NCBI RefSeq assembly: GCF_020804225.1
Contig: NZ_WJBI01000008.1
Span: 45,485 to 109,484 of the forward strand
Source: Methanosarcina sp. DH2
GTDB lineage: Archaea > Halobacteriota > Methanosarcinia > Methanosarcinales > Methanosarcinaceae
Reading direction: 5' to 3'
Length of the DNA: 64,000 nucleotides
In this document: positions 9,723 to 43,903 of the stretch, in pieces
Layout: every line of letters starts with the position of its first letter
How positions within the stretch are numbered: position 1 is the stretch's first letter
Program-made: the position numbers and the translations under genes
Notes under the pieces: generated by a model
What the model was told of the DNA's origin: nothing
Seen by the model: only the letters and a program-made list of their open reading frames with translations
Database searches by the model: none

Positions 9723-9914
9723 CCCTTGAAAATTATTTTTTACGATTTAATTTTTTGAATAAGCTTATCAAAAAGCCTTATGAAATAAATCTGGCTTTAC
9801 AGACCTTATAAGTTATGATACGACGGCTAAAGGCTTAAAGGTACGGAAACCCACAGAAACTGATTGAATATTATGATCTGATGATGAAAATCATAAATCA
9901 TCTGATCAATCGGT

Positions 9915-10550
9915 TGATATTGTCCAGCATATCCAACACGGTATTTCTTGTTTCTCTACCCTTGCGCCGCGCAGAGCTTTGCCGACTTGCCATAGATAAG
10001 AAAAGACAATAGTTGAGTATACAAATCAATTGAAAGAAACTGAGTAATACAGGGAAACGGTCACCTAGTATGAAAAATAATTATCTTAACTACAGAAACC
10101 ATATCTCATCTAAGGACATATAAGTGCCTCCGCCAGCTTGCCTGGCGGCCTTTTCCAAAAAGAAGGGAGAAACCGAAGAAAAAAGAAGGGAGAAACCGAA
10201 GAAAAAAGAAGAGAGAAATCGAAGAAAAAAGAAGAGAGAAATCGAAGAAAAAAGAAGAGAGAAATCGAAGAAAAAAGAAGAGAGAAATCGAAGAAAAAAG
10301 AAGAAACTGGAAAATTCAGTAAAAAGTAGCAAAAAGCCATGTTGAAAATAGTATTTTTCGGTAAAGTTTTATTTTGTTTTGATACACATTGCCGGTTTTT
10401 TCTGCCGCTTCCAGCTTTGCCTATTTCTTGTTGCTTTTACTATTTGCCGATTCTCTTCTTCGTGTTTGTTTGCAAGATCTCTTTCCTTTCTCGAGCGTGG
10501 CAAGAATGACCCCATATGGCAAATAAGGTTTTGTTGATCGGAATTAAAGA
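9915..10550 (+). repeat. Dispersed ~600-nt intergenic element, copy 1
   Basis: This region lines up by eye with 26645-27240 and, less closely, with 42930-43740, all in the same orientation. Shared blocks in order are: 'ttgcgccgc-cag' (9962), 'aaagaaac' and 'gaaacggtca' (10034-10066), the hairpin CCGCCAG-cttgc-CTGGCGG (about 10132-10150), a run of 'aaaagaag', 'gtatttttc' followed by 'ttctgccgctt' (about 10350-10413), and 'tcgagcgtg-caa-aa' (10493-10508). No frame is conserved between copies, so it is not a gene. I see no inverted repeats at its ends. Confidence 0.65.
10161..10311 (+). repeat. 23-nt tandem repeat array
   Basis: About six copies of a 23-nt unit, 'gaagaaaaaagaagrgagaa' plus 'ayc', lie inside dispersed-element copy 1. 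Because 23 is not a multiple of three, all frames stay open across the array on both strands and produce spurious Lys/Glu- or Phe/Ser-rich frames of 63-80 codons. The other element copies have only a short 'aaaagaag' tract here, so the array expanded locally. Confidence 0.9.
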
Positions 10551-11010
10551 TTCAAATTTATAACCAGCCATACTTTACTGAAAAATATCAATCATGTGAT
10601 GGCTGATTTCCAAACGCTATAACAATTTGTCCCAAAAGAAATTATATCAATTAACTTGATTATTCCGTGACTTAATTTCGCTGTTTGTAGATATTCTCGA
10701 GATAATTATAATCTTCCAGCGTAATACTTTTTGGGTCCTTATTAACAGAAAAAAGTAGCATGAAATGTTGTTTATTAATGTGTATTCTTCTCCAGTTGTT
10801 TAGTGGCGCGTGAAGATTCTTATATCTATGGGGATTTTCCAGGATCTCGTCGACTGTATATTTTCAAAATCAGGCTTAATTTTTAAAATCAGAAGATTAA
10901 GATCTCATGAAAAACAGCAAGGGAAAATAGTATGGGAAAATAGTATGGGAAAAAATTAAGATGAAGGAGCTATACCTCCATCCAGCATTTTTCTTACTGA
11001 TTAAGTTATT
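10551..11010. other. Intergenic stretch without recognisable genes
   Basis: About 460 A+T-rich bases between the dispersed element and the beta-helix gene. There is a short direct repeat 'aaaatagtatggg' near 10926-10950. No coding frame or clear hairpin was found. Confidence 0.4.
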
Positions 11011-21019: not shown

Positions 21020-21666
21020 TCACAATTCGCCTATCCTCACTTGAATGAATTATCTGTCGCTTTTTTCGTATTTCTCTGCATTTTATATCTAACTTAATTT
21101 ATAGCCAGTTCCAATTGATTTCGATATAGAAATAAGTGTGTGCTTTATTTCGATATGGTAAGGTCTATACGGCATCTTCTTAATAAATAATCCCGAGCCC
21201 CTAGAGCCTAATCCATCCAGTCTGATGCCCGGGTTAAATGCTTTCTTCTATTTTTTGCGTCTGAATGGTGTAGCCAGCCTGCCAGCCAAATTAAGTGCTG
21301 ATCGTCTGTACGACTATTTATAGTACTATTAAAAATCTGAATTTATGAATGTAGTAAAAATTAAGAGTTACTTCCTTTAGTTACTTCCTTTAACTCCAGG
21401 AAACCGCTCTTCAATTATAAATCATATCAGCGCCCCCACCAGCTTTTCTGGCGGTTCTCTCCAAAAAGAAAATATAAACGGTAAACAAATAAAAAGAAGT
21501 AAAAAGAGTAAAAAGGAGTAAAAAGGAGGAGACTTGAAGAAGCAATATTTTCTGCAATCTCGAAGTGAAATTCGGGAGGGTTAAAATCTAGGAGGGTTAA
21601 AATCCAGGAGGCTGGATTTCGATCGATCTTAACTGTTATTTTCTCTTTAATCGGCTTTTTTCAGGC
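21020..21666. other. Intergenic region with fragments of two dispersed repeats
   Basis: No gene was found in about 650 bases. At 21441-21462 'ccaccagcttttctggcgg' plus 'ccaaaaagaaaa' resembles the hairpin block of the dispersed element seen at 10.1, 26.9 and 43.0 kb. At about 21535-21585, 'tcgaagtgaaattcgggagg' resembles the repeat family of 1-215. Short direct repeats are also present: 'gttacttccttta' (about 21368-21393), 'gtaaaaag' runs, and 'aggagggttaaaat' at 21587. Confidence 0.5.
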
Positions 21667-26625: not shown

Positions 26626-26644
26626 AGGCAGCTCCTGCTTAATT

Positions 26645-27240
26645 GTTTGGTCTTATCCAGGACGCCAAAACTGAGCCTTTCTGTTTTCTCTGTTGCGCCG
26701 CACAGGGCTGGTTGACCCGCCGCCTACCAAAAAAACAATAGCTGAACATATAACACAACTAAAAGAAACCTAATACTAAGGAGAAACGGTCATCCTGCAT
26801 GAGAAACAATCCTCTTGGCCCCGGAAAGCCGCATTTTAATTCACAGGATATACAAACGTTCCCTCCAGCTTGTACAGGATATATAAACGTTCCTTCCAGC
26901 TTCTCTGGCGGCCCTTCAAAAAAAGAAGAGGGAAGTGGAAGGGGAGAACTGAAAATAACAATAAAATTAACAAAAACACACGTGAAAAGCGTATTTTTCA
27001 AGTATGATTTAATTCTGTTTTGTTTGTACTGTGTTGCTTTTTTCTGCCGCTTTGGCTTGTCAGTTTGTCGTTCTTACTTACAAGCGTTCCCAGTAGCTTT
27101 TAATTTTTGATTTTCTTTTTTTTCTTTTTTTTCTTTTTTTTCTTCTTTTTTGGGACCGGCCGGTCTCCTTCGTCGAGCGTGACAAAAACGGTTCAGTATG
27201 TGAATACGGTTATACCGGTTATAGAGATTCGTAGTTTAGA
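26645..27240 (+). repeat. Dispersed ~600-nt intergenic element, copy 2
   Basis: This matches copy 1 at 9915-10550 block by block: 'gttgcgccgcacagggc', 'aaaagaaacc', 'gagaaacggtcat', the 'ccttccagcttctctggcgg' hairpin region, 'ttcaaaaaaagaagag', 'gtatttttcaagt', 'tttctgccgctt', a T-rich tract, and 'cgtcgagcgtgacaaaaacgg'. It also has a perfect 12-bp palindrome GACCGGCCGGTC (about 27153), which copy 3 carries in imperfect form and copy 1 lacks. It has no conserved open frame. Confidence 0.65.
26843..26904 (+). repeat. 31-nt direct duplication within element copy 2
   Basis: Two adjacent 31-nt units beginning 'acaggatataYaaacgttcc' and ending in 'tccagctt' plus two bases (26843-26873 and 26874-26904). 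This doubles the left arm of the hairpin block. Confidence 0.85.
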
Positions 27241-27244
27241 ACCA

Positions 27245-27540
27245 TAAATTAGTCCTCTTGAGCGAAACAAAGTGGAGCGAAAAGGACCGCGTACTCCCGA
27301 GTCGCAATTCGGGCGAGTCGCAATTCGGGCGAGTCGCAATTCGGGGCGAAAAGGACATTGTGCTGTTGAACTTGCAGTGCAACTCCCAGGAAATCTCTGA
27401 TTCCCTGTGACCCCGAAGCGCAATTAGAGAGTAAAATCTGTGATTTATAAATTAGTCTGCTTGAACGAGCGAAGCGAGTGAAACAGACCTCGTGCTCCCG
27501 AAGCGAAACTCGGGAAGCGAAACTCGGGCGGGTGAGGAAT
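27245..27540. repeat. Dispersed intergenic repeat (CGAAGCGAAACTCGGG family), copy B
   Basis: It shares long identical stretches with 1-215, for example 'aaattagtctgcttgaacga', 'gcgaagcgagtgaaacagac', and 'gaagcgaaactcgggaagcg'. Within it 'cgagtcgcaattcgggg'-like units are repeated three times in tandem at about 27297-27345. It ends just beyond the 3' end of the minus-strand reductase gene. Confidence 0.8.
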
Positions 27541-27568
27541 ATTTTTATTAGGCTCGAATGCCAATTCA

Positions 27569-42776: not shown

Positions 42777-42929
42777 TCCTGTATCTGTGATTACCTGGTG
42801 ATTCCTGATTAATCTGTAGTACTATTCAGAATCTCTTAAGGTGAAATCTTTTGTTTTTCTCTTCTGCACCTTGAAGATGAAGCCACTAGCCATCCACACA
42901 TGAAAAATAACAGGTTATTTATGCTGGTA

Positions 42930-43740
42930 TTGAGAGAAAACGAGTGCTATAGAGAAATCTCCCTGGCATAAGAAAAATCCGATACATACACTTATCTCGA
43001 TCCGGAAGTTTCATTCCAACTCACAGGTAAATATAATCACCTATACCAGCTTGCCTGGCTGCCCGTCAAAAGAAGTGAAAAGAAAAGTAAAGAGAATTGA
43101 AACTTCTACTTTTTCGTTTCTCACAGGGACCTTAATAGTTTTTATTTACCGCATTTTCTCTTATTTTCTTCTTATTTTTTCGCTGGAAAGGTAGCTCTCC
43201 TGTGTTAAGCATAAAAAAATAATCCAATATGGAGAATAAAGTCCACACATAACTAATTCTGTACCTCATAGGTATATCGTCAATATTCCAAATAGATATT
43301 ATGCAGAAGTTCTGGAGGAATGCACCATTTGGACAAAAAATACTCTATTATCCCAGAAACCGTTTTTAATCCACAGTTAAATTTAAGCTCCGCCAGCCTG
43401 ACTTGCACCCTTCAAAAAAGAAGAAAGAAGTAGAAAGAAATTGAAAAAAAGAGTCTTGACAAAGCATTAAATAGCAATAAAAGCAGGCATGGAAGGATTG
43501 TTTTGGTAGTATTTATTTCGGTTTTTCTGCGTTTCCACGGACTTTTAATGTCATTTTTACTCTCTGGCTTTTATTTGTTGGTTTTTATTTGTCGGCTTTT
43601 ATTTGTTAGCTTTTATTTGTTAGCTTTTATTTGTTGGCTTTTTTCTTTCTTTTCTCTTTTTTGGGACCGGCCGCTCTCTTCCTTCGAGTGTAACAAGAAC
43701 GGTTCAGTATAATGAATAAGATTTTAAAGGTCGAGGTTGC
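42930..43740 (+). repeat. Dispersed intergenic element, copy 3 (rearranged)
   Basis: This resembles copies 1 and 2: 'gagaaatctccctggcataag', 'aactcacagg', 'ccagcttgcctggctgcccgtcaaaagaag' (split hairpin, 43045-43075), a second hairpin-like 'ctccgccagcctg' plus 'cccttcaaaaaagaagaaag' near 43388-43430, 'tttctgcgttt', a T-rich tract, then 'ttttttgggaccggccgctc' and 'cttcgagtgtaacaagaacgg'. The doubled hairpin block makes it longer than the others. The rest of 42777-43903 has no gene. Confidence 0.55.
43568..43637 (+). repeat. 14-nt tandem repeat in element copy 3
   Basis: Five units of 'cttttatttgttrg' (43568-43581 through 43624-43637). Copies 1 and 2 have a different sequence at this place, so the expansion is local. 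Confidence 0.85.
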
Positions 43741-43796
43741 AGTTTTGTCCTTTTAGTTTTGTCCTTTTAGTTTTGTCCTTTTAGTTTTGTCCTTTT
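43741..43796 (+). repeat. 14-nt tandem repeat, four perfect copies
   Basis: Four identical units 'agttttgtcctttt' lie just past the end of element copy 3. Their perfect identity suggests a recent expansion. Confidence 0.9.
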
Positions 43797-43903
43797 TAGC
43801 CTTCTTGATTAAAGCTCATTGTTATAACCTATAATTTAGTCCTCTATAAACTATAATTTTTTTTCCTGAGCACAGTTCGCTGCTAATAACTATAATTATA
43901 TTT

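Follow-up and report, generated by a model that had tools for sequence, protein, structure and literature searches.

What is the intergenic, non-coding repeat that recurs on the plus strand of a 64,000-nt stretch of the Methanosarcina sp. DH2 genome (contig NZ_WJBI01000008.1; hereafter the window)? A sequence-only reading had offered two answers, a mobile or structural non-coding element or an expressed RNA family. With a probability of about 90%, we consider the repeat to be a non-autonomous, MITE-like Methanosarcina DNA transposon of ~540-940 nt, for which we infer mobilization in trans by an IS1-family transposase. Terminal inverted repeats, 8-bp duplications, an empty orthologous site and IS1-family relatives with the same ends point to that class and, together with unequal copy numbers, strongly support the mobile half of the earlier proposal.

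Copies in the window and in the genus

All three copies, and a fragment retaining the left block alone, were present where they had been reported, as judged from matches to two sequence-only profiles, R1 for the right block and R2 for the left block (10074-10554, 26803-27239, 42988-43739, and the fragment at 21382-21464; Table 1). The similarity of the blocks was far above chance, with E-values down to 8e-27 for blastn and 2.5e-25 for profiles in the own genome (G000), and a private minisatellite was recovered in each copy. The extents first proposed were too short. Among the ordered blocks described as shared, the hairpin and T-tract parts proved to be family-wide, but GCGCCGC, GAAACGGTCA and TTCTGCCGC were common to copies 1 and 2 and a few other family members and were not found in copy 3. 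The latter is a double or nested copy, in which a left block is followed by a partial right block, another left block, and a full right block. The plus-strand-only pattern and the 16-17 kb spacing held within the window, but both strands were used genome-wide, and the two are local coincidences.

Table 1. Features of the repeat copies in the window; C32 coordinates are those of the contig in G000.
Feature	Position	Strand	Evidence or remark
Copy 1, near-complete MITE-like element, ~718 nt	9894..10611	+	both ends recognizable, decayed; end scores 5′ 52 vs shuffles 24.3 ± 3.3, 3′ 36 vs 21.0 ± 2.8
Copy 1, left terminal inverted repeat	9894..9934	+	outer 8 nt decayed
Copy 1, left block	10074..10158	+	R2 50.2 bits, C32:55558-55642
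Copy 1, hairpin CCGCCAG-loop-CTGGCGG inside left block	10130-10150	+	
Copy 1, private 23-nt minisatellite in A-rich middle	10157..10304	+	6.4 units
Copy 1, right block (T-tract, core, downstream part)	10454..10554	+	R1 64.2 bits, C32:55938-56038
Copy 1, right terminal inverted repeat	10575..10611	+	
Fragment, left block alone	21382..21464	+	R2 47.3 bits, C32:66866-66948
Copy 2, ~925-bp insert between MATCAP and FAD genes	26627..27553	+	5′ end score 34 vs shuffles 18.9 ± 3.0; 3′ terminal repeat not found by end scoring
Copy 2, left block, partly duplicated through 31-nt repeat (26843-26902, 1.9 units)	26803..26922	+	R2
Copy 2, right block	27136..27239	+	R1 70.2 bits; core 27158-27191
Copy 2, 3′ module, repeated hairpins (GTCCTCTTGAGCG..., CCCGA..TCGGG, GTTGAAC..)	27252..27545	+	sequence, module survey
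Copy 3, double/nested copy	42797..43800 (end approximate)	+	5′ end score 64.5 vs shuffles 22.3 ± 3.4; 3′ end lost
Copy 3, first left block	42988..43071	+	R2 53.4 bits
Copy 3, second left block	43337..43418	+	R2 40.2 bits
Copy 3, right block	43647..43739	+	R1 68.7 bits; core 43669-43702
Copy 3, private 14-nt minisatellites	43565-43642 and 43741-43796	+	5.6 and 4 units

Scanning genomes with profiles built from the copies, as the sequence-only reading had suggested, exposed ~130 pieces in the own genome (4.6 Mb, 37 contigs). Specifically, blastn with copy 2 returned 47 matches, R1 gave ~70 matches above 48 bits, and R2 gave 84; pairing of the two lists left 46 loci with both blocks, 52 with the right block alone, and 38 with the left block alone. 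The corresponding numbers were 43, 30 and 23 in G032, a complete congeneric genome in which cdc6 marks position ~0. Copies were present in 29 of 31 congeneric genomes, from 0 to 92 per genome at E ≤ 1e-6, and their number was not proportional to genome size. Across the family, the left block reads GGAAACCG..TTTTAATTCACAGGTAAATATAAACGCCTCCGCCAGCTTGTCTGGCGGCC and runs into an A-rich tract, the right block consists of a T-tract followed by GGGAAAGGCCGCTCTCCTKCGTCGAGCGTGACAAGAACGG..., and the two lie 6 to 850 nt apart.

When 257 billion bases of GTDB genomes were searched for exact occurrences of TCTCCTNCGTCGAGCGTGACA, nearly all matches fell in sequences titled Methanosarcina or Methanosarcinaceae, the exceptions being a pair of contigs with the title Euryarchaeota archaeon and a single contig labeled Cloacimonadota. 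The last of these (L188, JAQVBK010000173.1) derives from a sample in which a Methanosarcina MAG was recovered as well, and its label is probably a mis-binning. A phage, plasmid or viral origin was considered and set aside, there being no matches among viral contigs, plasmids or phages. The copies are intergenic and occur in all four gene-orientation contexts (++ 27, +- 32, -+ 22, -- 41); 20 of 130 overlap just short open frames, of ~100 codons with one of 211, which we took as spurious.

A separate hairpin repeat, comprising GTCCTCTTGAGCGNAGCGAAAAGGAC and hairpins of the CCCGA..TCGGG or GTTGCAC..GTGCAAC types, was often located 3′ of the right block, and in the window it is seen behind copy 2 and at positions 2-191. 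A further element lies directly left of the window (G000:C32:45080-45167), and the repeats at 2-191 probably stem from its 3′ module. Matches to this module numbered 38 in G000, 67 in G032, 14 in G061 and 95 in G078. Additionally, tandem arrays with a period of ~113 nt, made up of the downstream part of the right block and the 3′ hairpin module, were observed in G032 (L086, G032:C1:2021733-2022311; and G032:C1:2235355-2235805).

Ends, target duplications and IS1-type relatives

Orthologous sites differed in whether they held the repeat. At the copy 2 site, the gap between the MATCAP and FAD genes is 944 bp, versus ~130 bp and element-free in G069; the copy 3 site is occupied in G032, G078 and G068, and lacks the element in G083 and G021; for copy 1, several genomes have the element at the orthologous site and others lack it.

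Intact copies in the genus have abrupt ends formed by imperfect terminal inverted repeats of ~30 bp (GGTGGTYC...GTTGATATT), the 5′ end reading GGTGGTYCC..TTAATCRGTTGATATTATTC and the other GGTCGTCCACCKTTACATGGTTGATATTTTT. A recent G032 subfamily, of ~750 nt and mostly 80-87% identical, sets these boundaries at GGTGGTTCCTGCTTAATCGGTTGGTATTATTC... and ...AATATCAACCATGTAACGGTGGACGACC, the latter resembling the former when reverse-complemented. When all loci were scanned for paired ends, 34 elements were obtained, a few IS copies among them, and their 8-bp flanks had a mean identity of 0.68 versus 0.39 when permuted (z = 9.4), with no comparable signal at other lengths. Flanks matched at seven or all eight positions in 16 of the 34; the target duplications were mostly AT-rich, and perfect ones, including AAAAGATT, TGCAGATT, AATATTTT and ACTGTTTT, bordered L324, L328, L331, L333 and L335/L323. 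In the window, no target duplication was recognizable; copy 1 keeps both ends in decayed form, and copies 2 and 3 just the 5′ end.

The long non-coding forms measured 538-943 nt, which mostly exceeds the usual size of MITEs, typically below ~600 bp. A tblastn search of five full elements with the IS1 transposase produced spurious matches of 8-10 residues alone. Short forms of 173-194 nt (L339, L167, L049 and others) share the terminal repeats of the long ones, and perfect 8-bp duplications flank some of them; they are a second, smaller MITE type.

The search for the end pattern in the genus also recovered paired ends 1163-1166 bp apart, and these were insertion sequences encoding a transposase of IS1 type (PF03400, DDE_Tnp_IS1, E = 4.9e-5; L368 scored at the curated cut-off with 24.1 bits, and L365 slightly under it with 21.7 bits). 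Members of the IS1 family produce 8-9-bp target duplications and have GGTG-like ends. The elements with matching ends came from G064, G067, G032 and G078, and perfect 8-bp duplications flanked L365, L366, L367, L368, L382, L387, L384 and L397. Ends of the non-coding element matched IS ends at 20-27 of 30 positions, agreement at 20 or more having a frequency of 7e-5 among window 30-mers, and the 5′ end of L335 was 90% identical to an IS end over 31 nt (E = 2.6e-7). Comparison of the interiors, on the other hand, found no meaningful similarity between the element and the IS1-type element, and by this sequence criterion the interior is not derived from an IS, nor is the repeat a deleted one. DDE_Tnp_1 transposase genes near the ends of L325 and inside L381 were taken as neighbors or later insertions, not as the partner.

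Because full-length IS1-type elements in the genus agree with the non-coding element in their ends and in the 8-bp length of the duplication, an IS1-family transposase would be expected to cut or copy the element in trans. The interior is a modular non-coding cargo, consisting of the left hairpin block with its A-rich tract, a slippage-prone middle that breeds the private minisatellites, and the T-tract with a core of ~30 nt; a 3′ hairpin module follows in some lineages. The A-rich tract and the T-tract are predicted to form U-tract terminators on both strands, and these may make insertions tolerable. The own genome, in which the closest IS1 type survives just as remnants (C29:64325) beside one divergent IS1-like gene (C2:18417), fits the decayed condition of the copies in the window. 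Points that count against the transposon reading are this shortage of an intact partner in the own genome, the lost outer ends and missing duplications of the window copies, the borderline Pfam scores, and the many loci that keep one block alone.

Alternative readings of the cargo and its core

The repeat might instead represent non-coding RNA genes that are structured and expressed, forming one family of dozens of paralogs, as the sequence-only reading had allowed; this we regard as very improbable. The conserved hairpin CCGCCAG-loop-CTGGCGG, the complementarity of left and right segments (GGCGGCCTTTCCCAAAAAGAAG / CTTCTTTTTGGGAAAGGCCGC), and the second hairpin of the 3′ module, whose variants are compensatory (TTGCAC/GTGCAA, TTGCGA/TCGCAA, TTTCAC/GTGAAA), all speak for it. 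However, mutual information across 82 joined copies revealed no nested Watson-Crick pairs, left and right arms paired not significantly better within the same copy than between copies (p = 0.08 on the plus strand, 0.25 on the minus), the window contained no Rfam match at the gathering score, and the spread of the family is already explained by terminal repeats and target duplications. A long-range RNA stem joining the left and right blocks was likewise rejected, the two being complementary by eye and lacking covariation, as was the notion that they are inverted halves of one repeat, for which the profiles aligned well at first sight but not significantly once the T-tract was removed (13.9 versus 10.9 shuffled, SD 2.2).

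Archaeal U-tracts function as terminators (PMC8716108), and 113 of 130 copies have a run of at least five T before the core. This run and the A-rich tract 3′ of the left hairpin could be read as a dedicated bidirectional terminator or insulator selected between genes; this is hard to reconcile with the lack of preference for convergent genes among the orientation counts given above and with the presence or absence of the element at orthologous sites, and we consider it highly unlikely.

The core itself (GGCCGCTCTCCTKCGTCGAGCGTGACAAG, with the dyad CGCTC-N9-GAGCG) raises a further, separate idea, that the transposon dispersed a host DNA-protein site, for instance one that organizes the chromosome. 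Among 23 copies picked by the left block alone, the core was 94% conserved versus 78% over the following 42 nt (Wilcoxon p = 3e-5), and in 12 orthologous pairs, both members of which were found via the right block, the values were 84% and 68% (p = 3e-7). In the sister genus g11 (L442-L447), the core is preserved almost unchanged at unrelated loci, at which the left-block profile and the end patterns matched nothing. A chromosomal role had also been suggested earlier, with orientation bias as its pointer; in G032, we found no bias relative to the replication strand, 56 of 96 copies being co-oriented, but position was skewed, the origin-distal half holding 66 of the 85 loci (p = 3e-7, a raw count unscaled for intergenic length). 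That enrichment also fits general insertion tolerance, and copy number, at 0 to 92 among congeners, sits uneasily with a host function. Moreover, old copies lose the core (the copy 1 orthologs L271, L272 and L274), and elements flanked by duplications exist without an intact one (L335/L323, L326 and L364), so the core is not required for movement. A host site of this kind is thus an unlikely reading on present evidence. Since g11 retains the core without a recognizable left block or ends, there is an outside chance that this stretch of ~30 nt serves the host as a functional site and outlives the transposon body, in which case tens of putative nucleoid- or transcription-protein sites would have been seeded around Methanosarcina chromosomes.

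Relation to known elements

If the MITE-like transposon is the correct reading, much of the odd, minisatellite-rich intergenic DNA of Methanosarcina would be explained as copies and debris of one family, for which the ends, the 8-bp duplication, and the left and right profiles supply an annotation model. It also advises caution, in that intergenic minisatellites and hairpins in this genus can arise as side products of mobile DNA and need not mark RNA genes, and it leaves the over-conserved core as a concrete and testable puzzle. A description of the family was not found in the literature searched, to which most subscription papers and ISfinder did not belong, and it may be catalogued elsewhere.

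Archaeal MITEs have been listed for Sulfolobus, Halobacterium and Haloquadratum, with Methanosarcina unmentioned (PMC10969869); these, too, are non-autonomous elements moved by resident IS. IS1-family insertion sequences of the Methanosarcinaceae have been mentioned as uncharacterized relatives of ISCaa4 (PMC3196728). They are alike in having terminal inverted repeats (GGTNGTCC...GTTGATATT) and 8-bp duplications, whereas the element described here has no transposase ORF and an unrelated interior.

By analogy of architecture, the nearest described counterpart is BrickBuilt of Porphyromonas gingivalis (PMC4596501), a MITE holding a minisatellite. Both are intergenic, non-coding and multicopy, with inverted-repeat ends and a restricted host range, and in both a minisatellite, with a 23-nt unit in BrickBuilt and in window copy 1, is framed by a conserved leader and tail. 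The description of BrickBuilt gives a single 23-nt repeat and 19 copies (PMC4596501). In contrast, each copy of the Methanosarcina element has its own minisatellite or none, a genome can hold up to ~90 profile matches, and the element is further set apart by its IS1-type ends, its 8-bp duplications and its conserved, non-repeated core.
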